Part shown: positions 1 through 16,417 of the stretch, one piece after another
How positions within the stretch are numbered: the first letter of the stretch is position 1
Layout of the letters: each line of letters starts with the position of its first letter
Source of the DNA: a virus
Length of the DNA: 39,068 nt
IMG/VR virus record: IMGVR_UViG_3300025418_001130
Span: 1 to 39,068 of that record
Strand: one strand, 5' to 3'
The notes under the pieces: generated by a model
Databases searched by the model: none
What the model was told of the DNA's origin: nothing
The model's input: only the letters and a program-made list of their open reading frames with translations
Translations under genes and position numbers: made by a program

Positions 1-1869
1 GAGGATGAGAATCGCCGTGAGACATGGGGTGAAACTGTAGACCGCTACTTTAACTTTATGGTAATTCAGTTGCGTGAAAAGCATGGCTATGTTCCAGACG
101 ATAAGATTCTTGCAGAACTTCGTGATGTAGTTTTTAATCGTAACGTAATGCCATCTATGCGTTCTGTAATGACCGCAGGACCAGCATTAGAAAGAGAGAA
201 CGTTTCTGGATATAACTGTGCATTTCTTCCTGTAGATAATGCTCGTTCATTTGATGAAGCAATGTATATTCTTATGTGCGGCACTGGTGTTGGATTCTCT
301 GTTGAGTATAAGTACATCAACAAACTCCCCGCCCTTCCAGAAACACTTGAGAAGTCATCAACCACTGTTATTGTTGGAGACTCTAAGGAAGGCTGGGCAA
401 AGGCTTATAGAGAGCTTCTAGGTCTTTTGTGGGCAGGACAAATCCCACAGATTGATATCAGCAAGGTTCGCCCATCAGGTGCTCGTTTAAAGACAATGGG
501 CGGAAGATCATCTGGGCCACAACCACTAGTAAATCTATTTGATTTTACAATTCAAGTATTTAAGGGAGCACTCGGTCGTCAACTAAAGCCAATTGAAGCT
601 CACGACATTATGTGTAAGATTGGTGAAGTTGTTGTAGTCGGTGGAGTTCGCCGTTCTGCCATGATTTCACTTTCAAATATTAATGATATTGAAATGGCAC
701 AAGCAAAGGCAGGTAACTGGTGGGAGAAGAACTCTCAACGTGCTTTGTCAAATAACTCTGTTGCATATTCTCGCAAGCCAGAGATGCAGCAGTTTATTGC
801 AGAGTGGAAATCACTTTATGATTCTAAATCTGGAGAAAGAGGAATTTACAATGTGGCAGCAGCCCAAGCCCAAGCAGCAAAGTACGGAAGACGTAGTGCA
901 GATATTCACTACGGAACTAACCCTTGCTCAGAAATTATCCTACGCCCTTATCAGTTTTGTAATCTTTCAGAAGTCGTACTTCGTGAAAAAGATACAATTG
1001 AAGATGTCACAAATAAAGTCCGTCTTGCATCCATTCTAGGAACATGGCAATCAACTCTTACAGACTTTAAGTACATCCGTAAGATTTGGAAAGACAATAC
1101 CGAAGAAGAGCGTCTACTTGGAGTTTCACTTACTGGACAATTTGGACATAAGTTCTTTTCTGGACAAGAGGGACTAGATAAGCTTGGAGATATTCTTGAT
1201 CATCTTCGTCAATGGGCAGTAGATGTTAATATTGTAGAGGCAGAGAAAATTGGGATTCCCGCCTCAGCAGCAGTTACTTGCGTTAAGCCTTCGGGCACAG
1301 TGTCCCAATTGGTCGGGGTGTCTTCAGGAATGCATGCATGGCATTCAGATTACTATATTCGTACAGTTCGTGGGGACAAGAAAGACCCAATTACTCAGTT
1401 TTTAAAGGATTCAGGTATTCCTGCAGAAGATGATGTAATGAAGCCAAATGATACAACTGTATTTTCGTTTCCAGTAAAAGCACCAAAGCATGCTATTACT
1501 AGAGATAAGCTAACAGCAATTCAACAACTTGAAGTTTGGCTTACATATCAGAGACACTGGTGTGAGCATAAGCCTTCCATTACAGTATCTGTAAAAGAAG
1601 ATGAGTGGATGGAAGTTGGAGCATGGGTATATAAGCATTTTGATGAGGTTTCTGGAATTTCATTCCTTCCATACTCAGAGCACACATATGTTCAGGCTCC
1701 ATACCAAGAGGTTACAAAGGACCAGTATGAAGATATGCTTTCAAAAATGCCTAAGAGCATTAATTGGACTGCATTATCCATGTATGAGCTAGAAGACACT
1801 ACAACTGGAACCCAGGCATTAGCATGCGTTTCTGGTGAATGTGAAATTGTAGATATTGGCGGAAACTGA
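1..1869 (+). CDS. nrdJ: Adenosylcobalamin-dependent (class II, monomeric) ribonucleoside-triphosphate reductase, 5'-truncated
   Basis: Reduces ribonucleotides to deoxyribonucleotides for phage DNA synthesis in the cytoplasm. The frame is open from base 1, and the residues before the first ATG at 58 (RRETWGETVDRYF) already look like reductase N-terminal sequence, so the gene starts upstream of the window. Counting from base 1, the chemistry residues are all visible: C73 in SGYNCAF, C309 in NPCSEI, C320 in QFCNLSE, and a C-terminal shuttle pair C609-x4-C614 (CVSGEC). The 11-residue spacing of the second and third cysteines and the CxxxxC tail match Lactobacillus leichmannii RTPR. The CVKPSGTVSQL and SGMHAWHSDYYIRTVRG blocks are also typical of that group. 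By family numbering recalled from RTPR, the C73-C309 interval is about 50 residues short, so this is a compact viral form. No intein or intron interrupts it. A promoter-like -10 overlaps its stop codon. Confidence 0.95.
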   Translation, partial: EDENRRETWGETVDRYFNFMVIQLREKHGYVPDDKILAELRDVVFNRNVMPSMRSVMTAGPALERENVSGYNCAFLPVDNARSFDEAMYILMCGTGVGFSVEYKYINKLPALPETLEKSSTTVIVGDSKEGWAKAYRELLGLLWAGQIPQIDISKVRPSGARLKTMGGRSSGPQPLVNLFDFTIQVFKGALGRQLKPIEAHDIMCKIGEVVVVGGVRRSAMISLSNINDIEMAQAKAGNWWEKNSQRALSNNSVAYSRKPEMQQFIAEWKSLYDSKSGERGIYNVAAAQAQAAKYGRRSADIHYGTNPCSEIILRPYQFCNLSEVVLREKDTIEDVTNKVRLASILGTWQSTLTDFKYIRKIWKDNTEEERLLGVSLTGQFGHKFFSGQEGLDKLGDILDHLRQWAVDVNIVEAEKIGIPASAAVTCVKPSGTVSQLVGVSSGMHAWHSDYYIRTVRGDKKDPITQFLKDSGIPAEDDVMKPNDTTVFSFPVKAPKHAITRDKLTAIQQLEVWLTYQRHWCEHKPSITVSVKEDEWMEVGAWVYKHFDEVSGISFLPYSEHTYVQAPYQEVTKDQYEDMLSKMPKSINWTALSMYELEDTTTGTQALACVSGECEIVDIGGN

Positions 1870-1895: not shown

Positions 1896-2243
1896 ATGTC
1901 TGTTAAAGAAACTAATACAAGCGTAGTCCAGGGGGATACCTGGGATGCAGTTATATATGTTACAGATTCAGTAGGCAACCCTATAGATTTTTCACAAGGA
2001 TATACCTTTTTTATGGAGGTAAGAGATAGAGATGGCGGGCACATAGTTTGTGCTACCGCATCTGTTGGGGATGGAATAACAGTCATTGGATTAGGAACAA
2101 TATCTGTAAAGCTAACCCCTACAAAAACAAAAAACTTTGTTTTGCCAAAATCTAAGTATCAAATTATATCTGTAGATTCATTCCAAAATAGAAAAACTCT
2201 TGCACAGGGATGGTTTGATGTTGAAGCAGGTTTAATTTCATAA
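1896..2243 (+). CDS. Small virion or baseplate-type protein (BppU-N-like beta domain)
   Basis: 115 residues. It begins with a VQGDTWDAVIYVTDSVGNP-type strand pattern followed by MEVRDRDG and a SVKLTPTKTK segment. This order (QGDT, a domain-opening 'dsxGnPidf', then 'mevRd') is common to small beta-rich proteins beside phage tail-fibre genes and resembles the N-terminal domain of BppU baseplate proteins. That family name is a resemblance, not an established match. The SD is AGGGGTG, about 5 bases before ATG. Its stop overlaps the next start as TAATG, so the two are probably translationally coupled. It may attach or organise the collagen and glycine-rich protein encoded next. Confidence 0.55.
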   Translation: MSVKETNTSVVQGDTWDAVIYVTDSVGNPIDFSQGYTFFMEVRDRDGGHIVCATASVGDGITVIGLGTISVKLTPTKTKNFVLPKSKYQIISVDSFQNRKTLAQGWFDVEAGLIS

Positions 2244-3385
2244 TGACAGATAATATTTACGTAACGCTACAAAATACAAATATTGAAGTTTCAACCCCAG
2301 GATATCAAGGGCCAAGAGGTTTTCAGGGTGTGCAAGGTAATATTGGAAATACTGGAATTCAAGGCGTTCAAGGTATTTTAGGTTTACAAGGATACCAAGG
2401 CTTGCAAGGTTTTCAGGGAAATAGTGGTATACAGGGTTTGCAAGGCTTACAAGGAACTAAGTTTTTAGAGTATGGAAATCTTTCTGATTTGCCGCAGAAC
2501 CCCCCAGTTGGATTATATTATTATGCTCAAGATATAGACAAAATGCTTTTTAGTGGCATTAATGGATGGAATAAGGTTTCTTCAACACCCGTCATTTTTA
2601 CTTCGGGTGGTACATTAACATCAGACTCAACATACTATTACAGAACATTTACTGATAGCGGAACATTTTCTATTTTAAATGGTTCTTTAAATGTTCAAAT
2701 ACTTGCAATTGCAGGTGGTGGTAGTGGAGGATATAGTTCAATAGGCGGTGGCGGTGCTGGAGGAGTTGTTTATCAACAAACAAATCTTTCTCACAATTCC
2801 TACAATGTTATTGTTGGCTCAGGTGGCTCAGGAGGAAATGCTGGTTCAAATTCAGACGTCTTAAATCCAAGTTCAAATAGCGTATTATCATCACCCGCAT
2901 TGGGAGGCGGAAGTTATTATCAACCCAACGGTGGCTCTGGGGTAGGAGATGGTGGTTTGGGAACGCCTGGTCAAGGATACAATGGTGGAGACAATCACGA
3001 TGCTGGAGGCGGCGGTGCTGGAGGAGTTGGTGGAGAAGGATATTATTCTTATGGAAGACCTGGTGGCGGAAATGGTGGTCCAGGAACACATGCATATTCT
3101 GATTGGGCGTCAGCAACAAATACTGGTGTAAATGGTGGATATGCTGGAGGTGGCGGCGGATGTGGAGTTGACTATGATTATGTAGGTGCAGTTCATGGTT
3201 CAGCAACTGATGGAGGAGGACATGGAGGATTAAATTATCCATGGTACTTTACTTATTCACAACCAGGTACAGCAAATACTGGCGGTGGTGGTGGCGGAAC
3301 AGGTGGGGATCCATCGTATGGCGTAGGCTCTGGCGGTTCAGGAATAGTAATCATTAGATATTTAAAGTCTGATGCAGGAATTTAA
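2243..3385 (+). CDS. Hybrid collagen-like and glycine-rich tail adhesin
   Basis: 380 residues, start coupled to the previous stop (TAATG). Residues about 18-73 form Gly-X-Gln collagen-like triplets (GVQGNIGNTGIQGVQG and similar). A short spacer leads to the module GGTLTSDSTYYYRTFT near residue 120. After that comes a long glycine-rich domain (GGGGAGG and GGGGGGTGG runs) ending in GGSGIVIIRYLKSDAGI. The spacer, glycine-rich body and C-terminus are shared with the four tandem genes at 11469-15552, so this is the fifth member of that family, fused to a collagen stalk in place of their short N-terminal module. Glycine-rich loops of this sort build receptor-binding tips in T-even type gp38 adhesins. 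A receptor-binding role here is inference. Confidence 0.8.
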   Translation: MTDNIYVTLQNTNIEVSTPGYQGPRGFQGVQGNIGNTGIQGVQGILGLQGYQGLQGFQGNSGIQGLQGLQGTKFLEYGNLSDLPQNPPVGLYYYAQDIDKMLFSGINGWNKVSSTPVIFTSGGTLTSDSTYYYRTFTDSGTFSILNGSLNVQILAIAGGGSGGYSSIGGGGAGGVVYQQTNLSHNSYNVIVGSGGSGGNAGSNSDVLNPSSNSVLSSPALGGGSYYQPNGGSGVGDGGLGTPGQGYNGGDNHDAGGGGAGGVGGEGYYSYGRPGGGNGGPGTHAYSDWASATNTGVNGGYAGGGGGCGVDYDYVGAVHGSATDGGGHGGLNYPWYFTYSQPGTANTGGGGGGTGGDPSYGVGSGGSGIVIIRYLKSDAGI

Positions 3386-5022: not shown

Positions 5023-6600
5023 ATGACAAGCAACCCTAGTAATACGCCCAAGGGTTTTAGATACCCTATCTACTCAGATTCACCAGATGTCCCTAGAGAC
5101 TTAGGCAACCTGGCATCTGATATTGATGCATATTTAAGCGTAAATAAGGGGCCAGGATATTTAGTATATTCATACTCAACAATTAATTTTGCAACGGGGA
5201 GCCAAACATTTTTAACCCCAATAGTTATAACAGCTGGTAGTACGTACAACCCACAAGGAAGTGGAGCCTACATAGCTGGAGATCGTGTAAGAATAATAAA
5301 TAATTCAAACACTTCTCAATATATGGAAGGTTTTATTACATCAGTAACTACAAATACAAATATTGTAGTAAACATTGATATTGTAAATGGTTCAGGCTCA
5401 TCTTCAAGCTGGACATTTTCTGTTACTGGTCTTCAAGGCGTTCAAGGACCTCAAGGTACTCAAGGTGTTCAAGGACTTCAAGGTAGACAAGGCGTACAGG
5501 GAGTACAAGGACCTCAAGGCACTCAAGGCGTTCAAGGAACGCAAGGTACTCAGGGATTACAAGGACCTCAAGGTACTCAAGGAGTTCAGGGGCCTCAAGG
5601 CACTCAAGGAGTTCAGGGGCCTCAAGGCACTCAAGGAGTTCAAGGACCTCAAGGAACTCAGGGCGTACAGGGTCCACAAGGTACTCAAGGCGTTCAAGGA
5701 ACTCAGGGCGTTCAAGGAACTCAAGGTACTCAAGGAGTTCAGGGGCCTCAAGGCACTCAAGGAGTTCAAGGACCTCAAGGAACTCAGGGCGTACAGGGTC
5801 CACAAGGTACTCAAGGCATTCAAGGAACTCAGGGCGTACAGGGTCCACAAGGTACTCAAGGCGTTCAAGGAACTCAGGGCGTACAGGGTCCACAAGGTAC
5901 TCAAGGCGTTCAAGGACTACAAGGATCTCAAGGTACTCAAGGTACTCAAGGCTTTGGATATGCTCAGCTTCAAGGTATTCAAGGTTTGCAGGGATTGCAA
6001 GGTACTCAAGGTACTCAAGGCTTTGGATATGCTCAGCTTCAAGGTATTCAAGGTTTGCAGGGATTGCAAGGAAATGCATCAACACACGCATTTGGCACTA
6101 CACCTCCACCAAATCCAGCAATAGGTCAATCATGGGTAAATACAAATGATGGAAGAACCTATACTTGGGATGGAACTGAATGGTTTGAAACTTATGATAA
6201 TTTAAGTGGTCTTCAAGGAATTCAGGGATTATTAGGCTTACAGGGAACATTTGGGCCACAAGGGATACAGGGTATACAGGGCAACCAGGGAATTCAAGGA
6301 ACACAAGGACTTACTGGATTTTATGCAGCTAGTGTTTCTTCTAATATAACACTATCTAAATTTACTAATTATTTTGTAGATACAACAGCTGCTAGAACAT
6401 TAACTCTTCCAGCTACCGCCGCACTTGGGGATGAACTTCATATATTTGATATATCTGGAAGTGCAGCTATAAACAATATAACTGTAAATAATAATGGATT
6501 AAATATAAATGGGGTTTCACAAACTTTAGTAATTGATAAGAATTATGCAGGAGTAGTATTAATTTATACAGGTTCAACCTATGGATGGAGAGTGTCATAA
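5023..6600 (+). CDS. Collagen-like tail fibre protein (long Gly-X-Gln stalk)
   Basis: 525 residues. The N-terminal ~140 residues form an attachment-like domain (PKGFRYPIYSDSPDVPRDLG, then a beta-rich part). Residues about 141-350 are nearly uninterrupted Gly-X-Gln triplets (GVQGPQGTQ) that should form a collagen-type triple helix. A small WVNTNDGRTYTWDGTEW module follows at about 370-390, then more triplets, then a ~95-residue C-terminal beta domain that could trimerise or bind receptor. Gln almost always fills the third triplet position and proline is limited to the second. The DNA shows a 9-base period and a perfect 69-base tandem duplication. The next gene starts in the stop codon (TAATG). 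Confidence 0.85.
   Translation: MTSNPSNTPKGFRYPIYSDSPDVPRDLGNLASDIDAYLSVNKGPGYLVYSYSTINFATGSQTFLTPIVITAGSTYNPQGSGAYIAGDRVRIINNSNTSQYMEGFITSVTTNTNIVVNIDIVNGSGSSSSWTFSVTGLQGVQGPQGTQGVQGLQGRQGVQGVQGPQGTQGVQGTQGTQGLQGPQGTQGVQGPQGTQGVQGPQGTQGVQGPQGTQGVQGPQGTQGVQGTQGVQGTQGTQGVQGPQGTQGVQGPQGTQGVQGPQGTQGIQGTQGVQGPQGTQGVQGTQGVQGPQGTQGVQGLQGSQGTQGTQGFGYAQLQGIQGLQGLQGTQGTQGFGYAQLQGIQGLQGLQGNASTHAFGTTPPPNPAIGQSWVNTNDGRTYTWDGTEWFETYDNLSGLQGIQGLLGLQGTFGPQGIQGIQGNQGIQGTQGLTGFYAASVSSNITLSKFTNYFVDTTAARTLTLPATAALGDELHIFDISGSAAINNITVNNNGLNINGVSQTLVIDKNYAGVVLIYTGSTYGWRVS
5433..6069 (+). repeat. Collagen-coding 9-base and 27-base repeat tract
   Basis: CAAGG recurs every 9 bases, with a higher-order 27-base unit encoding GTQGVQGPQ. 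The period is a multiple of three, so copy-number change would lengthen or shorten the stalk without a frameshift. Confidence 0.9.
5932..6069 (+). repeat. Perfect 69-base tandem duplication (two copies)
   Basis: 5932-6000 and 6001-6069 are identical base for base and encode the same 23 residues, including the non-collagen interruption FGYAQL. Silent identity implies a very recent duplication. Confidence 0.95.
6214..6301 (+). repeat. 88-base direct repeat, copy 1
   Basis: Identical base for base to 7936-8023 in the next collagen-like gene. Codes for a collagen-like segment with the interruption LLGLQGTFGPQG. Confidence 0.95.
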
Positions 6601-7547
6601 TGTCATTAAGTTATAGTTCAATTTTTGGTGGGTCGGGAGTTGCACAAACAGTAACAGCATCATCCCCCGCAACACTTTATACTTCAGCAGTGACACTGGT
6701 TCCAGGAACATATACTGTTACTTGTGTGTCAAGCACAAACACTGTTGTTGATTTTTATAATGGTACAACATTACTTGCTACAGCTACAACAGTCTCAGGT
6801 TCAGTTTCTGTTAATATTGGCTCAAATGCAACAAAAATTGAATATTATACAAATACTGGCTCAAACGTAGTAATTAGTATTCAATTGACTGGACAATCAA
6901 TAGCTAGCATATCTGGAACTCTTTATACTTATACTTCAAGTCAGGTGGTCCCACTTGTTGGAAATGGTTTTTGTGTATTAGTAGGCGGCGGCGGTAACGG
7001 AGGCTCTTGTTGGGTTAATGGGTCAAACACACCTTCACCAGGCGGTGGCGGCGGTGCAGCTTCAATTGTATTTGGAAGACAAGCATTAAACGGATCAACT
7101 TCGCTAGTTATTGGAAATAGTGGAGGAGGAACATCAACCTTTGGAACATTAACTGCAACAGGCGGAGCAAACGGAGTTAGCGGAAGCGGTGGCGCTAGCA
7201 ATGCTGGAGGTTCTGCTGGAAATCTTGGCGGAACAGGTGGAACTGGTGCAGCAATTGGAACAAATGCTACAGCAACATCTGCAATAAGCACATTAAATCT
7301 ATTGTTTACACAAGGAACAACTGGCGGTGGCGGCGGCGGAGGATGTGGACTAAATAGCTCTTATACTGGTGGTAGCGGAGCAGGTAGTGGAGTTGGCACT
7401 GGCGGCGGTGGTGGAGGATACTATGGTGGTCCAGGAGGAAATGGAACTGGTTACGGATCTGGCGGTGGCGGCGGCGGTGCGACAAGCGTTTATTCTGGAT
7501 ACTCTGGTGGTCTAGGAGGATCAGGTGTTTTGTATGTCATTATGTAA
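6600..7547 (+). CDS. Glycine-rich adhesin-like protein with beta-sandwich N-terminus
   Basis: 315 residues from the ATG at 6600, which overlaps the previous stop (TAATG) and follows a GGAGAG Shine-Dalgarno. An in-frame ATG at 6585 lacks these features. Residues about 1-115 are serine/threonine/valine-rich beta sequence. The rest is glycine-rich (GGGGNGG, PGGGGGAAS, GGGGGGGCG, GGGGGGYYGGPGG), ending in GGLGGSGVLYVIM. That ending is a diverged form of the GGSGIVIVRY terminus of the four tandem genes downstream. The family likely forms polyglycine-type loops in a receptor-binding tip, by analogy with T-even gp38; this is inference. Confidence 0.75.
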   Translation: MSLSYSSIFGGSGVAQTVTASSPATLYTSAVTLVPGTYTVTCVSSTNTVVDFYNGTTLLATATTVSGSVSVNIGSNATKIEYYTNTGSNVVISIQLTGQSIASISGTLYTYTSSQVVPLVGNGFCVLVGGGGNGGSCWVNGSNTPSPGGGGGAASIVFGRQALNGSTSLVIGNSGGGTSTFGTLTATGGANGVSGSGGASNAGGSAGNLGGTGGTGAAIGTNATATSAISTLNLLFTQGTTGGGGGGGCGLNSSYTGGSGAGSGVGTGGGGGGYYGGPGGNGTGYGSGGGGGGATSVYSGYSGGLGGSGVLYVIM

Positions 7548-7559
7548 TAAGGAGATAAA

Positions 7560-7775
7560 ATGGATTTTGCGGTAATTCAAAATGATGTTGTTGTAAATTT
7601 AATTGTTGCTGAAACAAAAGAAATTGCTGAAGAAGTAACAGGAAATCTTTGTGTTGAATTTTCAAAAGAGAATCATCCTTTGATAGGTTGGGCTTATAAC
7701 TCTATATCTGGAGAATTTATATCTCCTCCTCCAGCGGAAGTAAAGGTAGAAACGCCCTTAGCATCAACCATGTAA
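7560..7775 (+). CDS. Small tail-associated protein of unknown function
   Basis: 71 residues. It begins MDFAVIQNDVVVNLIVAETKE and has IGWAYNSISGEFISPPP near the end. The pattern 'viqngvVvNlivAe ... iGW.Y....g.F..P' is widespread in small proteins next to phage tail-fibre genes and suggests a fibre-associated or chaperone role, not proven. A strong SD AAGGAG sits 5 bases before the start, in the string AAGGAGATAAAATGG, which is repeated before the gene at 15826. Confidence 0.7.
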   Translation: MDFAVIQNDVVVNLIVAETKEIAEEVTGNLCVEFSKENHPLIGWAYNSISGEFISPPPAEVKVETPLASTM

Positions 7776-7812: not shown

Positions 7813-10275
7813 ATGGTTATCAGTTTCCCGTCCTCGCCCACATTAAATCAACAGTATTCCTACAATGGACGTACTTGGTCATGGAATGGAACTGCATGGC
7901 AGTCTGTTGGAACCGCTCAAGGTTTACAGGGAACACAAGGAATTCAGGGATTATTAGGCTTACAGGGAACATTTGGGCCACAAGGGATACAGGGTATACA
8001 GGGCAACCAGGGAATTCAAGGAATTCAAGGTCCTCAAGGTACACAAGGTGTTCAAGGTACACAAGGTGTTCAAGGCTTGCAAGGTTTACAGGGTCCAGTT
8101 TCATCTATTAATGCTCATCAGGCAGCAGAAGCTATTTCGGTAGGTTCTCTACCAAATTCTCCAACATATACGGCGGGAACTGCAGATTTTGAAAACGGTA
8201 CAGGAATTGGTGCTTATATACAGGCATCATCAAACGGAACATTGTCAATTGATGGATATACAACCCCAAATCTAGCTGTTGGAGATCGTATTCTGGTAGC
8301 TGGACAAACTAATAAAACAACAAATGGTATTTATACAGTAACGTCTGTTGGCTCTCCAACAACAGAATGGAAACTTACTCGTGCAACAGATTATAATAAT
8401 AGTGTGGCGGGTCAAGTAGAAGAAGGCGATTATATATTTGTAACTGATGGAACAGTTTATGGACAAACAGTTTGGATTCAAATTGGAAATGGTTCAAATT
8501 CAGATGGAACAATACGTATAGGTACAGATAACATTCAGTTTGCTCAAACATCTAGTATTGGTGCACAAGGACCAACAGGTCCAGCGGGAGCGGGTGGAGT
8601 AATAACAAATTATGGTTCATTTTATTCTACAGTAACACAAAATGCAGTTACATCAACTGGTAAAGCAGTTTTATTTGATTCTACTAACGTATCAAATGGT
8701 GTAACACTTACTTCAAATGGAACAAATTTAACTAGAATCACAATTCCTGTAACTGGAACATATATGATTGACTTTTCTGGTCAATTAGGTGCAACAGGTG
8801 GACCAGCATCACATACTGCAAGTTTTTGGCTTGTTAAAAATGGAGTAACTGCAGTAGGAACAGGTTTTGATACTCAATTTACAGCAACTAATCCAAAGAT
8901 AGCTACTTGGATATATCAGGTAAATGCAACAGCTGGAGATTATTATGAAATTTATTGGATAGCAGATAATACTGCTGTTGAACTTATTAATAGTCCCGCT
9001 TCTTCACCAGTACCTCTAGCACCTTCAGCTTTTGTTCGTGTAATTCAACTTGCTTATCAAGGTATTCAAGGTTTACAAGGTGTTCAAGGAGTTCAGGGAT
9101 TAACAGGCTCACAGGGAGTACAGGGTACTCAAGGAACAAGCATTCAGGGTGCGACGGGACTACAAGGATTACAAGGATTACAAGGATTACAAGGAGCAAC
9201 TGGGGCGGGAGCTCAAGGAATCCAAGGTCCTCAAGGTACTTTAACATTAACTCCTGCAAGAAATGTTACAGAATTTCCAACACCTACAGCAGGACAAACT
9301 ACATTTGCAGTAACTTATACTCCAGGATACATTGATGTGTTTCTTAACGGTGTTAGATTGGCTTCTGCTGACTATACCGCCACAAATGGCACATCTGTTG
9401 TGCTTGCCACTGGCGTAAATTCAGGCGATGTTGTAAATATTGTTACATATTCCCTTGGATTAGGTGCTCAAGGTGTTCAAGGGCTTCAAGGTGGAGGCTT
9501 TAATCAGCTGCAAGGAATACAGGGATCTGCAGGATTTTTAGGATCAAATGGTTCACAAGGTGTGCAAGGTATTCAAGGATTACAAGGTTTTGGCGCACAA
9601 GGAATACAAGGCATTTCAGGAACAATTATTAATGCTCCAGCTAAATCAGTAATAACTTTTAACCCAACAACTACAACCTCTACATTTACAGTAAGTTATA
9701 CAGTTGGGTATATTGATGTTTATATAAACGGTGTAAGATTATCTGGTGTAGACTATACTGCTACAAATGGAACTTCTGTAGTTCTTACAACTCCCGCCAT
9801 TAATGGTGACGTTGTTGATATTGTTCAGTATACAATGGGGCTGGGTGCTCAAGGGTTAACTGGTATTCAAGGTCCAGCAGGATCAATTCCTGCAACTTTA
9901 TCAGATGCAACATCTTCATCAGTAGCAAATTCACCAGGATTCTTAGGAATGCCTCAAAATGGACTACAAGGCACATTTACAACGACATACACGCTAGCAC
10001 CTTCAGATGCAGGAAAACATATTTATAGTTATAATGGCATGCTTATGGTAACTATTCCAGCAAACTCTTCTGTTGCATTTCCAGTAGGAACAACAATAAG
10101 CCTAGTTAATATGGCGGGTACTGGAATGCAAATAATGTTATCTATAACTAGTGATACTCTTTATCAAGCAGGAACGGGAGCAACAGGATCAAGAACTATT
10201 GCTCAATATGGAGTAGCAACTCTTCTTAAAGTAACACCAACATCATGGATAATTAGTGGAAATGGAATTTCATAA
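7813..10275 (+). CDS. Large multidomain collagen-like tail fibre protein
   Basis: 820 residues. Domains in order: a short module with YNGRTWSWNGTAW (about 16-30); Gly-X-Gln stalk (35-95); a beta domain common in tail fibres (about 97-245, with GDRILVAGQTNKTTNGIYTV); a C1q/TNF-like jelly-roll candidate (about 256-410); a second stalk; two tandem copies of a ~70-residue module (about 484-555 and 610-682, sharing GYIDVxxNGVRLxxxDYTATNGTSVVL); further short collagen segments; and a C-terminal beta domain. The modular plan suggests a trimeric fibre with several beta heads on collagen rods. The stop overlaps the next start (TAATG). Confidence 0.85.
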   Translation: MVISFPSSPTLNQQYSYNGRTWSWNGTAWQSVGTAQGLQGTQGIQGLLGLQGTFGPQGIQGIQGNQGIQGIQGPQGTQGVQGTQGVQGLQGLQGPVSSINAHQAAEAISVGSLPNSPTYTAGTADFENGTGIGAYIQASSNGTLSIDGYTTPNLAVGDRILVAGQTNKTTNGIYTVTSVGSPTTEWKLTRATDYNNSVAGQVEEGDYIFVTDGTVYGQTVWIQIGNGSNSDGTIRIGTDNIQFAQTSSIGAQGPTGPAGAGGVITNYGSFYSTVTQNAVTSTGKAVLFDSTNVSNGVTLTSNGTNLTRITIPVTGTYMIDFSGQLGATGGPASHTASFWLVKNGVTAVGTGFDTQFTATNPKIATWIYQVNATAGDYYEIYWIADNTAVELINSPASSPVPLAPSAFVRVIQLAYQGIQGLQGVQGVQGLTGSQGVQGTQGTSIQGATGLQGLQGLQGLQGATGAGAQGIQGPQGTLTLTPARNVTEFPTPTAGQTTFAVTYTPGYIDVFLNGVRLASADYTATNGTSVVLATGVNSGDVVNIVTYSLGLGAQGVQGLQGGGFNQLQGIQGSAGFLGSNGSQGVQGIQGLQGFGAQGIQGISGTIINAPAKSVITFNPTTTTSTFTVSYTVGYIDVYINGVRLSGVDYTATNGTSVVLTTPAINGDVVDIVQYTMGLGAQGLTGIQGPAGSIPATLSDATSSSVANSPGFLGMPQNGLQGTFTTTYTLAPSDAGKHIYSYNGMLMVTIPANSSVAFPVGTTISLVNMAGTGMQIMLSITSDTLYQAGTGATGSRTIAQYGVATLLKVTPTSWIISGNGIS
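7936..8023 (+). repeat. 88-base direct repeat, copy 2
   Basis: Identical to 6214-6301, 1722 bases upstream in the neighbouring fibre gene. The identity points to recent gene conversion or duplication between fibre genes. Confidence 0.95.
9162..9195 (+). repeat. 9-base tandem repeat (ACAAGGATT, about 3.8 copies)
   Basis: Perfect consecutive ACAAGGATT units encoding GLQ triplets within the second collagen stalk. Confidence 0.85.
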
Positions 10276-11459
10276 TGACGGGTGCATTCCAAGGGTTCTT
10301 TGGATTTTCATCCGCATCTCTTAATTACACAACATTTGGAAACTATTTAGGTGATGGTTCAAGTGGAAATGCTATATATAGTTCTGCAACTCAACAGGCA
10401 GTTGAAAATAAAAATGGTTCATATGACGGAGATATGGTCATGCTTCAATTTAAATCTTTAAATATAACTTCAACTGGTTCACTTACTCCAGATCAGCCTT
10501 GCAGAGGAATGTTTATATATGTTCAAGGTGATTGTACAATTAATGGAACTTTATCTATGACTGCAAGAGGTGCAGCAGCAAACCCAACAATTGCGGGAGC
10601 ATCAGATAATAATGCAGTAAGCTCTTCAGGTTTACAATATGGATTTGCTTATTCAGGTGGAACTGATTCTTTAACAATGTCTGCATCAACTTTTAACGGA
10701 ACAGGAAATAGAGCAAGAGCTGCTATTGCAAATCAAAAGAGCGGATCTGGAACAAATTATAAGGTTGTAACAATTTCAAGATCTGGATCTGCAGGAGCAG
10801 GTGCTACAACAAATGTTAATGGAAATGGTGGAGTTACTCCCCCAGATGCCGCAGCTGGATTTACTGGTGGCGGAGCAGCAGGTGGTGGTTATTGGGCAGG
10901 TGGCTCAAATATTTATCCAGGAAGCGGTGCTGCGGGAACTTGTTTTTCTGGCGGTGCAGGAGGTGGTGGATATAATACAAACAATGGCGGTATTTCTGCT
11001 GGTGGCAGCGGTGCTGCTTATGGTGGAGCAGGTGGACAGGGATCTTCAGGTGGTGCTATTTATGGAACACAATACAATAGATATGGTGGCGGTGGAGCAG
11101 GAAATCCACATGGAGCCACATGGAATGATGGAAATAACTGGGATTCTAATCTAGGTTCTTATGCTGCAAAAGATGGAACAGGCGGGTTGCTATTTTTAGT
11201 TGTTGGTGGAACTTTGACCGTTGGCTCTACTGGAAGTATTCAAGCAAACGGAAGTCGTGGTATGTCAACTTATGGCGGTGGTTCTGGTGGCGGAGCAATT
11301 GTTATTTTGTATAAAAATGGTTTTTCAAATTCAGGAAGTATAACAGCTTCAGGTGTACAAGCAGATGGAACAGTTGCGGGAGCAGTAGGGGCGGGATCAC
11401 CAGGAAATGGTAATAATCGTGGTGGAAATGGTTCAGTACAAACTTATCAAATGCTTTAA
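10275..11459 (+). CDS. Glycine-rich adhesin-like protein, divergent member
   Basis: 394 residues, coupled to the previous gene by TAATG. The N-terminal ~95 residues are not glycine-rich and include PCRGMFIYVQGDCTINGTLSM, a beta-helix-like strand series. The middle carries GGGAAGGGYWAGGSN, GGAGGGGYNTNNGG and GGGGAGNPHG runs. The C-terminus (GGTLTVGSTGSIQANGS, then GNGNNRGGNGSVQTYQML) lacks the shared RYTRxQVGG ending. It belongs to the glycine-rich adhesin class but not to the close paralog set that starts directly downstream. Receptor binding is inferred from composition and position. Confidence 0.7.
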   Translation: MTGAFQGFFGFSSASLNYTTFGNYLGDGSSGNAIYSSATQQAVENKNGSYDGDMVMLQFKSLNITSTGSLTPDQPCRGMFIYVQGDCTINGTLSMTARGAAANPTIAGASDNNAVSSSGLQYGFAYSGGTDSLTMSASTFNGTGNRARAAIANQKSGSGTNYKVVTISRSGSAGAGATTNVNGNGGVTPPDAAAGFTGGGAAGGGYWAGGSNIYPGSGAAGTCFSGGAGGGGYNTNNGGISAGGSGAAYGGAGGQGSSGGAIYGTQYNRYGGGGAGNPHGATWNDGNNWDSNLGSYAAKDGTGGLLFLVVGGTLTVGSTGSIQANGSRGMSTYGGGSGGGAIVILYKNGFSNSGSITASGVQADGTVAGAVGAGSPGNGNNRGGNGSVQTYQML

Positions 11460-11468
11460 GGAGGAAAT

Positions 11469-12374
11469 ATGTCAAGAAAAACAGATCTAATTCATACAAT
11501 CAGACTATCTGGTAATTCTTCTTCATACCCATCAAATTCATTTGTTGGGGAAAAATATTACGACACGACCCTACAACAACTTTATATTTATACAACTGGA
11601 GGATGGTTTCCAGTAAATCAAAAACCATTACCTGTAGTAACAGGAGGCATTTTAACCTCAGACTCAACTTATTATTATAGAACATTTACATCAACTTCTA
11701 ATTTAGTAATATCAACAATGCCATTAACTATAGACTTACTTATTGTAGGAGGAGGAGGTTCTGGCGGCGGCGGCCCAGGCGGCGGCGGCGGAGCTGGCGG
11801 AGTTCCTTCTCTAACATCTTCTGTAACTTTAACTCCAAATGTTTATTCTGCAACGATAGGTGCTGGTGGATCTTATGCTAATCAAGGTGGATCAGGTTCT
11901 GCTGGGTCTACAAGTTCAATAAATGCTAGATTAGCAACAGGTGGTCCAGGAGGCTCTGCAGGTGGAAATGGCGCAGGAGGAATCGCTACTTCTCCAGCAG
12001 GATCTGGAGGAATGGGTGGATATGGAACAGGTTCATCTCCAGTAGCGGGATCAAATGGATATACAAGCTCAACTATAAATTCAATATCTTCAGCAACTTC
12101 AACAGGACAAAATGTTAGTGGAAGCTATTATTATGGCGGCGGCGGTGGCGGAGGTGGATGGGATCTGCTAGGTGCAGCAGGAGGTTATGGCGGAGGCGGT
12201 GCAGGAGGTAACTCATACAGATTTTCAACTGGAACAGATGCAACAGCAGGAACTGCTAACACTGGCGGCGGCGGTGGCGGAGGTGCAGCAGCATCAGGTA
12301 ATGCACCAATTTCAGGTGCTGGTGGATCAGGAATTATTGTAGTTAGATATACTCGTACTCAAGTAGGCGGGTAA
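11469..12374 (+). CDS. Glycine-rich adhesin paralog 1 of tandem array
   Basis: 301 residues. SD AAGGAGG is 4 bases before the ATG. N-terminal module: SSYPSNSFVGEKYYDTTLQQLYIYTTGGW (short attachment or cap domain, residues ~13-45). Then PVVTGGILTSDSTYYYRTFTSTSNLV, a DLLIVGGGGSGG core strand, several polyglycine runs (GGGPGGGGGAGG, GGGGGGGGW), and the ending GGSGIIVVRYTRTQVGG. The three genes after it and the one at 2243 share the spacer, core strand and ending while the glycine-rich middle differs, which is the expected pattern for interchangeable receptor-binding tips. Polyglycine is written largely as GGC repeats. Confidence 0.8.
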   Translation: MSRKTDLIHTIRLSGNSSSYPSNSFVGEKYYDTTLQQLYIYTTGGWFPVNQKPLPVVTGGILTSDSTYYYRTFTSTSNLVISTMPLTIDLLIVGGGGSGGGGPGGGGGAGGVPSLTSSVTLTPNVYSATIGAGGSYANQGGSGSAGSTSSINARLATGGPGGSAGGNGAGGIATSPAGSGGMGGYGTGSSPVAGSNGYTSSTINSISSATSTGQNVSGSYYYGGGGGGGGWDLLGAAGGYGGGGAGGNSYRFSTGTDATAGTANTGGGGGGGAAASGNAPISGAGGSGIIVVRYTRTQVGG

Positions 12375-12413
12375 CTAAAAGAATGATAAAATATATTAAT
12401 TGGAGATTAAATG
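12360..12413 (+). repeat. Inter-cassette repeat, copy 1 (gene end, promoter, SD)
   Basis: 12360-12395 matches 14454-14489 with 3 mismatches in 36 bases: the gene end CAAGTAGGCGGGTA followed by AAAAGAATGATAAAATATA. Both copies then reach GGAGATTAAATG. The coding end, promoter and start therefore travel as a unit. Confidence 0.85.
12384..12392 (+). promoter_or_regulatory. Extended -10 promoter (TGA-TAAAAT) of adhesin cassette 2
   Basis: TGA plus TAAAAT in the short gap between adhesin genes, followed by TGGAGATTAAATG, so the transcript would carry a proper Shine-Dalgarno. Same element as at 14478 and 1867. Confidence 0.55.
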
Positions 12414-13484
12414 TCAAGAGCTAGAGATTTATCAATGTCATCAATGCCACAGGGTAATACTGCATCCCGTCCATCTAATGCATTTGTAGGGCAAGAGTAT
12501 TTTGATACAGATTTACAACAACTTTTAACTTATACTTCTTTAAGCACATGGGTGGCAGCAGGAACATCTGCAATACCAGTAGTTACTGGAGGAACACTTT
12601 TTTCAGATGCAACATATTATTATAGATTGTTTACATCTTCTTCAAATTTAATAGTCTCTGGTCAATCTTTAACTGCAGATATTTTGCAAGTTGCAGGAGG
12701 CGGATCTGGTGGAAGATATGGCGGTGGTGGAGGTGCAGGAGGAGTTGTTTATATAAATTCTCAATCACTTACCCCACAATCATATTCAGTAACTGTTGGT
12801 GCAGGAGCAACTGGTTATGCTGGAGATGCTCAAAGTGGAGGACAAGCAAGCAATGGAAATAATAGTGGTTTTGGCTCCCTAGTTCAAGCTATTGGCGGAG
12901 GTGGCGGAGGACTTTATCAAAACAATAAAGGTGTAAGCTCAGCAGGAGCAGCAGGTGGTTCAGGCGGCGGCGGAGCAATGTACAATATCGGTGCAAGCAC
13001 GGCAGCAGGCGGTTCATCAAATCAAACCACGGGTAGTGGATATACTGTTTATGGTAATTCTGGAGGAAATGGTGGTTTGTACAACAGTATTGATGCAGGC
13101 GGTGGCGGCGGAGCAGGAGTATCTGGAAATAATGGTACTTCAAGCGGTGCAGGAACAGGAGGAAATGGAACTTCAGCATATTCTGCATGGGGATTAGCAA
13201 CTTCAACTGGACAAAATGTTTCTGGAACAGTATATTATGCAGGCGGCGGTGGTGGAGGATCTGTTAAATCAAATACCCGTGCTACTGGAGGTTATGGCGG
13301 AGGAGGCTCAGGAGAGTATTCAAGTAATACATCAACAACCTCTTCAATTGTAGATGCATTAGCAAACACTGGTGGAGGTGGCGGAGGAAACCCAGACGTT
13401 TACGTTAGTGGGGTTTGGAGAGCTGGCAACGGTGGTTCTGGAGTAGTAATAGTAAGATATACAAGAGCATCAGTTGGCGGGTAA
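12411..13484 (+). CDS. Glycine-rich adhesin paralog 2 of tandem array
   Basis: 357 residues, SD GGAG 5 bases before ATG. N-terminal module ASRPSNAFVGQEYFDTDLQQLLTYT, then VVTGGTLFSDATYYYRLFTSSSNLIVSG, ADILQVAGGGSGG, and several glycine runs separated by variable segments. The ending GGSGVVIVRYTRASVGG matches the family. It carries its own predicted promoter and lies 36 bases after paralog 1. The variable middle (about residues 110-340) differs strongly from the neighbours and would determine specificity if this is a receptor-binding tip. Confidence 0.8.
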   Translation: MSRARDLSMSSMPQGNTASRPSNAFVGQEYFDTDLQQLLTYTSLSTWVAAGTSAIPVVTGGTLFSDATYYYRLFTSSSNLIVSGQSLTADILQVAGGGSGGRYGGGGGAGGVVYINSQSLTPQSYSVTVGAGATGYAGDAQSGGQASNGNNSGFGSLVQAIGGGGGGLYQNNKGVSSAGAAGGSGGGGAMYNIGASTAAGGSSNQTTGSGYTVYGNSGGNGGLYNSIDAGGGGGAGVSGNNGTSSGAGTGGNGTSAYSAWGLATSTGQNVSGTVYYAGGGGGGSVKSNTRATGGYGGGGSGEYSSNTSTTSSIVDALANTGGGGGGNPDVYVSGVWRAGNGGSGVVIVRYTRASVGG

Positions 13485-13490
13485 TAAATA

Positions 13491-14468
13491 ATGGGTCGCA
13501 TTAGAGATATGGCACAATCAGCAAGATCTATTAATACTACTTCTAATCGTCCTGCTAACCCACATCCTGGTCAAAAACATTATGATACAACTTTGCAACA
13601 AATGCTTAATTATACTTTAGGTGGATGGGTTCCAGTAAATATTGCTCCCCCTACTCCTAGCTTATCTGGAGGAACATTAACTTCTGATTCAACTTATTAT
13701 TATCGCACATTTACATCAACATCTTCTTTAGTTGTTTCTAATAGCGGAGTTACAGCAGATATTTTAATGGTAGCTGGCGGTGGCGGTGGTGGAGGATATT
13801 TTTATTTAAATGGCGGCGGTGGAGCTGGAGGATTAATTTATTCAACATCATCTTTAATTACTGCAGGAACATATTCTGTAACAGTTGGTTCAGGTGGTGC
13901 AATAAATGTTCAAGGAAATAATAGTATATTTAATGGTTTAACTGCAATAGGAGGAGGAAGAGGCACTGGATATATATCTAATGGATCAGATGCTACCATT
14001 GGAATAGATGGCGGATCTGGTGGCGGTGGCGGAGCTTACGAAACCTCTTTTAATAATTTTACTGCGGGTCACTTACATGGTTTTGGAACGCCTGGACAAG
14101 GTAATGATGGCGATGGAGGAGCTGCTGGCAATCCACAGTTTTCTGGAGGTGGTGGTGGAGCAGGAGCAGCGGCTAGTGGCATTGCTGGAGGAAATGGTTT
14201 AAGTTTTCCAGATTTTGCAAGTGCGACTTCAACAGGTGATAGAAATTACTATGCTGGAGGAGGAAGCGGAGTTGGCTGGAATTCACAAGCTAATCCTGGA
14301 ATTGGTGGTGGAGGATACGGTAATGCTTGGAATGGTTCAGCTAATGGAATGACAAATACTGGCGGCGGCGGTGGAGGAGATTCACCTTGGAATTATCAAT
14401 ATACAAGTGGCACAGGCGGTTCGGGAATAGTAATTGTAAGATATACCAGAGCACAAGTAGGCGGGTAG
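13491..14468 (+). CDS. Glycine-rich adhesin paralog 3 of tandem array
   Basis: 325 residues, starting only 6 bases after paralog 2 with no promoter of its own and only the GGCGGG end of the previous gene as a weak SD, so it should be co-transcribed with paralog 2. N-terminal module SNRPANPHPGQKHYDTTLQQMLNYTLGGW; shared spacer GGTLTSDSTYYYRTFTSTSS; core ADILMVAGGGGGGGYF; ending GGSGIVIVRYTRAQVGG. The middle has glycine runs with aromatic and acidic insertions different from its siblings. Confidence 0.8.
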   Translation: MGRIRDMAQSARSINTTSNRPANPHPGQKHYDTTLQQMLNYTLGGWVPVNIAPPTPSLSGGTLTSDSTYYYRTFTSTSSLVVSNSGVTADILMVAGGGGGGGYFYLNGGGGAGGLIYSTSSLITAGTYSVTVGSGGAINVQGNNSIFNGLTAIGGGRGTGYISNGSDATIGIDGGSGGGGGAYETSFNNFTAGHLHGFGTPGQGNDGDGGAAGNPQFSGGGGGAGAAASGIAGGNGLSFPDFASATSTGDRNYYAGGGSGVGWNSQANPGIGGGGYGNAWNGSANGMTNTGGGGGGDSPWNYQYTSGTGGSGIVIVRYTRAQVGG

Positions 14469-14505
14469 TCAAAAGAATGATAAAATATACACAGGAGATT
14501 AAATG
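14454..14505 (+). repeat. Inter-cassette repeat, copy 2 (gene end, promoter, SD)
   Basis: Second copy of the 12360-12413 unit. It gives homologous flanks around paralogs 2 and 3, so a single recombination event could delete or exchange that pair. Confidence 0.85.
14478..14486 (+). promoter_or_regulatory. Extended -10 promoter (TGA-TAAAAT) of adhesin cassette 4
   Basis: TGA plus TAAAAT followed by ACAGGAGATTAAATG. Same arrangement as before paralog 2. Confidence 0.55.
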
Positions 14506-15552
14506 ACACGTGCAAGAGATTTAGCTAATTCAAGTTATGCAATAGGACCAACATCATCACGTCCTGCATCTCCATATACTGGACAAGAATATTATGATAC
14601 AACATTACAAGAATTGATTACATATTCAACTGTTGGATGGGTAGGCGCTGGATTGCAAGGCTTGCCACCAGTAGTAACTGGCGGAACATTAACCTCTGAC
14701 ACAACATATTATTATAGAACTTTTACAAGCACTGGCTCTTTATCGGTAAGTGGTGGAAATTTAATTTCAGACATACTTATAGTTGCTGGCGGCGGGGGTA
14801 ATGGTGCTTATTGTTCTGGAGGTGGAGGAGCAGGAGGACTTCTTGGATATACAGCTACCACTATTACTGCAGGAAATAGTTACACGGTAACGGTAGGGGC
14901 TGGTGGTTCTGTAGGATCAAATGGTGGCAATTCAAGCGTATCTGGCTTATCTTTAACTACAGCCCTAGGAGGAGGATACAGTTCTTCTGGAGGAGGATCA
15001 ACAACTTATTTGGCACAAACTGGTGGATCTGGCGGCGGCGGAGCTGTAACTAATAGCAGTACTTGGAATGGAGCATCTGGTACATTAAATCAAGGAAATA
15101 GCGGTGGAAGTTTTACTGGCGGCTCTACTCCTGGAAACTATGCAGCAGGCGGCGGCGGCGGTTCAAGCACCGCTGGAGCAAATTCAAGTTCTTACCAAAC
15201 TACAGGAGCATCTGGAGGAACTGGATCTTCAGCATATTCGTCTTGGGGAGCAGCAACTGGAGTTGGTGATAATCATAGTGGAACTTATTACTTTGCAGGC
15301 GGCGGCGGAGGATTTATATCCAACAACTATTCTGGAGGAACTCTTACAGGCGGACCTGGCGGTTCTGGCGGCGGCGGCTTAGGTGCTTCTGGAAGCTCTA
15401 CGGGAGCTGTACTTGTCAATGGAAGCAATGGAGTTGCCTATACTGGAGGTGGCGCTGGCGGCGGCGGTACTACAAGCAATTCAAATTCGGGTTATTCTGG
15501 TGGTTCAGGGGTTGTAATATTTCGTTATACTCGTTCACAAGTTGGTGGATAA
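14503..15552 (+). CDS. Glycine-rich adhesin paralog 4 of tandem array
   Basis: 349 residues, SD AGGAG 5 bases before ATG. N-terminal module SSRPASPYTGQEYYDTTLQELITY, spacer VVTGGTLTSDTTYYYRTFTSTGSL, core SDILIVAGGGGNGAYC, many glycine runs including GGGGGSSTAG and GGPGGSGGGGLG, and ending GGSGVVIFRYTRSQVGG. It closes the four-gene tandem array. Ancillary small proteins follow, as in many fibre clusters. Confidence 0.8.
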   Translation: MTRARDLANSSYAIGPTSSRPASPYTGQEYYDTTLQELITYSTVGWVGAGLQGLPPVVTGGTLTSDTTYYYRTFTSTGSLSVSGGNLISDILIVAGGGGNGAYCSGGGGAGGLLGYTATTITAGNSYTVTVGAGGSVGSNGGNSSVSGLSLTTALGGGYSSSGGGSTTYLAQTGGSGGGGAVTNSSTWNGASGTLNQGNSGGSFTGGSTPGNYAAGGGGGSSTAGANSSSYQTTGASGGTGSSAYSSWGAATGVGDNHSGTYYFAGGGGGFISNNYSGGTLTGGPGGSGGGGLGASGSSTGAVLVNGSNGVAYTGGGAGGGGTTSNSNSGYSGGSGVVIFRYTRSQVGG

Positions 15553-15825: not shown

Positions 15826-16365
15826 ATGGCACATTTCGCAGAAATTGATTCAAATAATAAGGTGGTGCGTGTCCTTGTTGTATCTGATGCAGATGCAGTA
15901 AATGGCCATGACTTCCTTGCAAACAAGTTGGGCCTTGGCGGTACATGGGTTCAAACTTCATACAACACTCGTGGTGGAGTTCACTACGGTGCAGACGGTA
16001 AGCCAGACAATGGAACACAAATTGGTTTCAACTATGCTGGTATCGGATACACATGGGACGGTACAGGATTTGCTGCACCACAACCTTATCCATCATGGAC
16101 TCTAGATAAAACAACTTATTTTTGGAACGCTCCAGTAGCTGCACCAACACTTGATAGAACTAAGTATCCAGATAACATGCAGATTGTTACATGGAATGAA
16201 GATACAAAGGCTTGGGACTTCACACAACCATTCCCGTCTTGGACACAAGATGCTACGACAAAGTTCTGGACAGCACCAGTTGCATATCCAACAGACGGAA
16301 AGTCTTACTTCTGGAACGAAGAGACAAAGGTCTGGACAGAAGCACCTGCAGTACCACAAGCATAA
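15826..16365 (+). CDS. Tryptophan-rich small virion-associated protein (MAHFA type)
   Basis: 179 residues. Starts MAHFAEIDSNNKVVRVLVVSD, followed by GGTWVQTSYNTRGGVHYG, a form found in small structural proteins of marine cyanophages and pelagiphages (known pattern). The C-terminal half holds an internal repeat: YPSWTLDKTTYFWNAPVAAP at about 90-109, then FPSWTQDATTKFWTAPVAYP, then YFWNEETKVW. Strong SD AAAAGGAG with the spacer ATAAA, its own promoter, and a terminator 20 bases after the stop make it a compact single-gene unit. Two of its three arginines are CGT, unlike most fibre genes, hinting at high expression. Confidence 0.75.
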   Translation: MAHFAEIDSNNKVVRVLVVSDADAVNGHDFLANKLGLGGTWVQTSYNTRGGVHYGADGKPDNGTQIGFNYAGIGYTWDGTGFAAPQPYPSWTLDKTTYFWNAPVAAPTLDRTKYPDNMQIVTWNEDTKAWDFTQPFPSWTQDATTKFWTAPVAYPTDGKSYFWNEETKVWTEAPAVPQA

Positions 16366-16383
16366 TAAAACATATTACAAATT

Positions 16384-16417
16384 TGCCAGGAATACATTTC
16401 CTGGCATTTTTGTTTTT
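16384..16417 (+). terminator. Rho-independent terminator closing the fibre region
   Basis: Perfect 9-base stem (TGCCAGGAA with TTCCTGGCA) around a 5-base loop, followed by TTTTTGTTTTT. It separates the fibre and accessory cluster from the LamG gene. Confidence 0.9.

Follow-up and report, generated by a model that had tools for sequence, protein, structure and literature searches.

Glycine-rich adhesins have been tied to host recognition in several described phages. In hafunaviruses, host range maps to these proteins, and mutations in them alter it (PMC8651126). In the T-even phage PP01, loops of gp38 touch OmpC (PMC12892980). The gp38 sequence consists of conserved glycine motifs set between variable segments (PMC6851490), and the same alternation is found in the Pam3 fiber protein gp24, which forms a complex with gp25, its chaperone (PMC9608196). 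A single virion may also carry more than one receptor-binding protein, as in CBA120, where four tailspikes for different hosts are displayed (PMC8825819).

Here, we analyzed a virus record of 39,068 bases (the window, i.e., the whole stretch of DNA under study), which contains portal, major head protein, and tape measure genes of phage type and to which contig L007 is identical across 20,182 bases. The source is a freshwater virus of bacteria, a tailed phage. Four consecutive genes (W1 to W4) encode a short N-terminal module, the cap, followed by a glycine-rich part, the tip. We consider it likely that this array provides independent receptor-binding tips that are expressed together, share a chaperone encoded by the downstream gene g15826, are probably displayed together, and are exchanged between phages.

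Four tandem paralogs and a fifth, collagen-fused copy

An earlier note, made from the letters of the sequence, had claimed four tandem glycine-rich paralogs at positions 11469 to 15552, and our searches bear this out (Table 1). The genes are intact open reading frames in succession, all in one orientation, and no copy is truncated. W1 to W4 passed the PF21722 (Gly_rich_2) profile with E values of 2.5e-9 to 1.4e-19; together with the gene at 2243, they scored 37.9 to 71.5 bits over nearly the full profile (curated cut-off, 24.3 bits). W1 to W4 also matched phrog_2295, which has no function assigned. Searches of annotated phages by tblastn, with W4 and W3 as queries, returned no useful match. 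Pairwise identities among the W genes are 42 to 55% for the caps and 50 to 56% for the tips. As glycine-rich proteins align by composition alone, we set the alignment scores against composition-preserving shuffles. The scores lay so far above the shuffles (caps, z = 21 to 30; tips, z = 20 to 26) that the similarity is not a glycine artifact. The conserved spacer and RYTR-type ending described in the earlier note are present in all four proteins, as GGxLxSDxTYYYRxFT and RYTRxxVGG. The collagen-fused fifth copy at 2243 was likewise recovered, with a collagen stalk followed by a weak cap match (E = 9e-5) and then a tip (E = 1.3e-17; z = 22 to 25). W1 to W4 and the 2243 gene are true paralogs.

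Table 1. Array genes and associated features in the window (R1 to R4 are the corresponding genes of contig 3300032236_001065)
Feature	Position	Strand	Description
Fifth copy	2243..3385	+	380 aa; collagen-like stalk, weak cap-like module, Gly_rich_2 tip
Glycine-rich protein	6585..7550	+	320 aa; at most a very distant array relative
Glycine-rich protein	10275..11459	+	394 aa; not supported as a homolog of the array genes
W1	11469..12374	+	301 aa; cap 11469-11642; Gly_rich_2 tip 11643-12371
W1/W2 junction	12375..12410	+	With flanking start and stop codons, identical to R1/R2 junction (45 bases compared)
W2	12411..13484	+	357 aa; cap 12411-12587; tip 12588-13481
W3	13491..14468	+	325 aa; cap 13491-13667; tip 13668-14465; modeled with AlphaFold2
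W3/W4 junction	14469..14502	+	Nearly identical to R3/R4 junction; AAAAGAATGATAAAATATA unit in common with W1/W2 junction
W4	14503..15552	+	349 aa; cap 14503-14679; tip 14680-15549
g15826	15826..16365	+	179 aa; phrog_7759; candidate tip-assembly chaperone
Hairpin and T run	16384..16406	+	Terminator-like; 3' of g15826

Two more distant relatives had also been proposed, at 6600 and 10275, and our searches did not confirm this. The start of the former gene is at 6585, not 6600. Neither gene matched PF21722 or any PHROG, and the hhalign probabilities against the array were 2% (6585) and 0.3% (10275). In the shuffle test, 6585 reached a z of only ∼6 and 10275 a z of ∼2, the latter not separable from glycine composition, and we reject 10275 as a relative. 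The same values fall short of demonstrating 6585 as one; the sequence comparisons place it as a possible, marginal, and very distant relative. A search for relatives of these two genes returned one partial relative for 6585 and solely a near-identical contig for 10275.

The array has features of a single transcription unit. No internal terminators lie between the W genes, internal promoters occur at the level of shuffled sequences, and the hairpin downstream of g15826 is probably where transcription ends. Clear ribosome-binding sites precede three of the four W genes, W3 being the one that lacks a clear site.

Predicted folds of the tip, the cap, and the downstream protein

We modeled W3 with AlphaFold2 from an alignment of 78 tips (pLDDT, 90; pTM, 0.85). 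The tip (model residues 67 to 323) best matched the Pam3 fiber protein gp24 (Z = 14.9; 2.7 Å over 174 residues; 28% identity), followed by the Bxb1 tail tip (9D93 chain Q; Z = 13.2). The glycine-rich regions of ALK/LTK came next, far below these two (Z of ∼6), and an HF2 glycine-rich protein was among the BFVD fold matches. When PDB sequences were searched with a profile, only the Pam3 fiber matched (E = 0.02). The tip is thus predicted to have the TNF-like plus glycine-rich receptor-binding fold of the Pam3 gp24 type. The model is a monomer prediction, and the W tips may be trimeric.

Along the tips, conserved glycine motifs, whose entropy averages 0.8, are separated by segments that vary in length and reach an entropy of 3.2. 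This pattern is common to gp38 and Pam3 gp24 and so is not specific to gp38. The label “gp38-like” in the earlier note therefore stands as an analogy but not as a family assignment: the gp38 adhesin profile PF05268 had no match in the whole record at E values up to 10, by which we reject membership of the gp38 family by sequence, and the fold neighbors are Pam3 gp24, Bxb1, and ALK/LTK. S16 gp38 (6F45) was not among the fold matches listed, which leaves room for a polyglycine sandwich fold.

The cap spans ∼58 residues in each paralog. Residues 11 to 50 resemble a module of CBA120 TSP3 (1.1 Å over 39 residues; 36% identity), and weakly a small module of Mtd (Z = 3.6 to 3.9); a short stretch of a phiKZ capsid protein is also similar (Z = 4.0). 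Several caps also weakly match phrog_20787, annotated as “virion structural protein, head and packaging.” The cap is probably an oligomerizing or docking module.

Downstream of W4, a 62-residue open reading frame is followed by g15826, a member of phrog_7759, a family without an assigned function. Of 103 tip genes that are terminal or single, 56 have a g15826 family gene next to them on the downstream side, mostly within 6 bp, and 5 have one upstream. As these loci were found mostly via the tips, we reversed the test by searching for g15826 in annotated phages. A PF21722 gene lies directly upstream of the g15826 family gene in nine of ten cultured or annotated phages, which comprised pelagiphages, roseophages, a methylophage, a cyanophage, and an unassigned marine phage (Greip was left out); the exception is Pontimonas phage phiPsal1. 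In the AlphaFold2 model of g15826 (pLDDT, 86), residues 3 to 60 resemble the N-domain of Pam3 gp25 with a modest score (Z = 5.5; 2.1 Å over 58 residues), and gp25 was the sole chain with a Z of at least 5. The helical trimerization domain of gp25 is absent from the model, and Caudo_TAP (PF02413) matched neither g15826 nor any of 51 family members. The best match of g15826 is the partner of gp24, the best match of the tip itself. From the model and the gene order, g15826 is a candidate chaperone for tip assembly. Dependence on a shared chaperone may be the reason why the core and the ends of the tips are conserved.

Variation and exchange of tips among relatives

We fetched 80 loci using the portal as an anchor. 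What lies upstream of the portal differs among relatives, with none to eight tips. Many relatives with the same portal carry no tip array at this site, which shows that the lineage can do without one. Judged by eye, the corresponding region of one relative (L076) holds three tandem repeat-rich paralogs of ∼741 residues that look beta-propeller-like, and those of two others (L071 and L168) hold clusters resembling 2-oxoglutarate oxygenases. Of 114 tip runs, 96 were single genes, 14 were pairs, two were triples, one had four genes, and one had eight, in a count that took identical sequences once and thereby split some arrays. Few long arrays without interruption occur in this sample, and a tandem array of up to eight tips is an unusual feature. 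As for the host, the lone genome match was an 83% identical portal on a contig of a metagenome-assembled genome labeled as a cyanobacterium, which is too weak for any host assignment; in the part of that contig that we read, the phage had no array of tips.

The run of eight is on contig 3300032236_001065, the closest relative that was informative, whose portal is 94% identical to that of the window. Its genes R1 to R4 match W1 to W4 in position, and the junctions are nearly identical. The W1/W2 and R1/R2 junctions are the same although the genes on both sides differ. Between W2 and R2, the tips are 94% identical and the caps are 64% identical, while tips of the other three positional pairs are only 48 to 56% identical, which is the family background. 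In a sliding DNA comparison of the two contigs, identity climbs and drops at gene ends and caps. For the W2/R2 tip, the only pair close enough for selection to be measured, dN is 0.030 and dS is 0.448 (ratio of ∼0.07), which indicates strong purifying selection, as for a part kept for function.

A second pair of relatives, L049 and L057, shares 7,030 bp of backbone at 98.9% identity. In the gene before the last, the tip DNA is 100% identical and the N-domains are only about half identical. In the last tip gene, both parts differ save for the short conserved start, linker, and end, so that this gene has been replaced. The differences between the two phages begin at conserved linkers. Replaced tips and N-domains beside conserved flanks indicate that tips are exchanged as modules by way of these flanks, and swapping of the middle regions, which the earlier note had proposed as a check, is seen directly among relatives, both between R1 to R4 and W1 to W4 and between L049 and L057. 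These two close comparisons constitute the evidence for recent exchange.

We also considered how such exchange might occur. Ordinary homologous recombination with other phages fits best. No reverse transcriptase (PF00078) was found in seven relatives, whose records are possibly incomplete, and the paralogs diverge more than template-type repeats would. Diversification by reverse transcription seems unlikely on these grounds. Inversion-driven fiber switching was rejected: no serine or tyrosine recombinase (PF00239 or PF00589) was found in the window and three relatives, and all copies have the same orientation. A tip at 75% identity or more in a different array position of another phage was searched for, and no case was found.

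Proposed display of the tips and comparison with known systems

The fold (Pam3 gp24 and Bxb1), the genomic context, and the published host-range genetics of glycine-rich adhesins support the earlier view of these proteins as receptor-binding tips, and by analogy and model the W tips would be expected to bind receptors. We favor co-display of the copies because their reading frames are intact, three of the four have clear ribosome-binding sites, and the W2/R2 tips are under purifying selection. In the arrangement that we propose, a small N-terminal cap, which probably oligomerizes or docks, would be joined to a TNF-like and glycine-rich tip, in which the conserved glycine motifs would serve as a rigid frame and the segments between them as a variable, presumably receptor-contacting surface. 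All copies would be expressed together, with folding helped by the putative chaperone g15826 encoded downstream, and the tips, probably displayed together on one virion, would offer several options for host recognition. New tips would arrive by homologous recombination with other phages via the stretches of the cap, the linker, and the end that are conserved. A broader form of this proposal is put forward more tentatively: four to eight gp24-type tips may be shown at once and be served by one dedicated phrog_7759 chaperone, with single tips refreshed by inter-phage recombination at conserved linkers and with the chaperone-tip pair as a module widely distributed among phages that infect abundant aquatic bacteria.

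Alternatively, the tips may compete for one docking site, so that virions carry one tip or a mixture and differ in host range. The homologous caps may share such a site, and with no internal terminators all copies would be made, but caps that are just 42 to 55% identical could also mean separate sites; we regard this alternative as rather unlikely, though worth keeping in mind. It is improbable that one copy is used per virion while the rest act as donors for recombination inside the genome. The common caps, linkers, and ends would supply the homology, and sharp-edged exchange is seen between phages. Yet every copy is intact and has its own start, with none truncated or silent, no position-shifted tip was found, no invertase, integrase, or reverse transcriptase turned up in the records searched, and the W2/R2 tip is under purifying selection. 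A silent reservoir within one genome, a form of the recombination reservoir suggested in the earlier note, is not borne out by these observations.

We give similarly little credence to a role in decoration, in which the proteins would lie on the head or tail surface and bind glycans, mucus, or particles as a loose attachment aid only. The phiKZ and phrog_20787 likenesses of the cap and the location of the W genes near the portal and structural genes are in keeping with such a role; the tip fold, however, is that of tail fiber and tail tip proteins, and the W genes are preceded by collagen-type fiber genes and followed by a chaperone-like gene. Neutral remnants of duplication in a plastic region, with several copies conferring no advantage, would account for the range in tip number at this site, but the open frames kept in all copies, the dN/dS of the W2/R2 tip, and replacement that preserves the frame and the conserved ends make this explanation very improbable.

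If several receptor-binding tips are indeed co-displayed, predicting hosts from a single fiber gene would be wrong for this phage group. The glycine-rich family, mostly annotated as “unknown” or “glycine-rich domain-containing,” becomes a testable receptor-binding system in freshwater and marine phages, and the downstream phrog_7759 gene provides a clear marker by which such tips can be sought in metagenomic data. The pair of almost identical phages with a single tip replaced is in effect a natural experiment in how host range changes.

Among known systems, Pam3 gp24/gp25 (7YPX) shares with this locus the TNF-like and glycine-rich receptor-binding part, as predicted for W3, and, in g15826, a modest likeness to the client-binding N-domain of gp25. 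Pam3, however, is described with one fiber protein docked by an N-terminal helical bundle (PMC9608196), whereas the window has several copies in tandem whose cap is small and of beta type, and gp25 has a helical domain that g15826 lacks. Bxb1, whose tail tip protein is the second-best fold match of W3, is a mycobacteriophage. The T-even gp38 proteins of S16 and PP01 are alike in having conserved glycine motifs between variable segments and a modular choice of receptor; in S16, by contrast, one gp38 caps the gp37 trimer and the center is a beta-helix rather than a TNF-like core. The Hafunaviridae also carry a glycine-rich adhesin in a hypervariable region, with differing adhesin groups within one species, but one adhesin gene per virus is described, in contrast to the tandem arrays here (PMC8651126). 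CBA120 resembles the window in its adjacent receptor-binding genes, in recognizing several hosts per virion, and in the C-terminal module of TSP3, which is similar to the cap, and it differs in having enzymatic tailspikes with known branching domains and a receptor part unrelated to the W tips (PMC8825819). HTVC023P and phage 023Pt_psg01 have shorter arrays with different N-domains, the annotation of which goes no further than hypothetical or structural, and in each of them the two adjacent PF21722 genes tested are followed by a member of the g15826 family.

Candidate partner genes of the glycine-rich tips

The phrog_7759 member 3′ of the tandem tip genes is a candidate chaperone. The small protein that follows the glycine-rich gene at position 6585 shows kinship with the N-terminal half of this family, and as such a relative lies directly 3′ of it, the 6585 gene would fit as a very distant tip.

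Features discussed in the window and in related loci
Feature	Location	Remarks
B12-dependent (class II) ribonucleotide reductase gene	window 1-1869	upstream of fibre region; incomplete, cut through by the window start
71-residue protein	window 7560-7775	phrog_14370; directly 3′ of the 6585 glycine-rich gene
phrog_7759 family member (g15826)	window 15826-16365	no assigned function; family often immediate 3′ neighbour of Gly_rich_2 genes
Tape measure protein	window 29028-35015	internal stretch (~residues 961-1117) matches phage polynucleotide kinase families
Three tandem paralogs, 740-742 residues each	L076 1160-7834	beta-propeller-like repeats
One 870-residue ORF	L148 and L159, 7935-10544	tip-profile match over 844 residues

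Apparent tape measure domain and weak host lead

Judging from its family matches, the tape measure protein apparently carries a phosphatase/kinase-like domain in its interior. A relative portal (83%) was found on a 110-kb contig (L170) within a MAG labelled uncultured cyanobacterium, which gives a weak hint at the host; the contig could also be a mis-binned phage.

Fused tips and the array site in related phages: possible and observed variants

As the tip-profile match extends over nearly the whole ORF shared by L148 and L159, its sequence suggests several tips fused into a single protein. In the related phage L076, the paralog trio sits where the window has its tip array. Upstream of the portal in L071 and L168, gene clusters that by eye resemble 2-oxoglutarate oxygenases fill the same variable region as the array.
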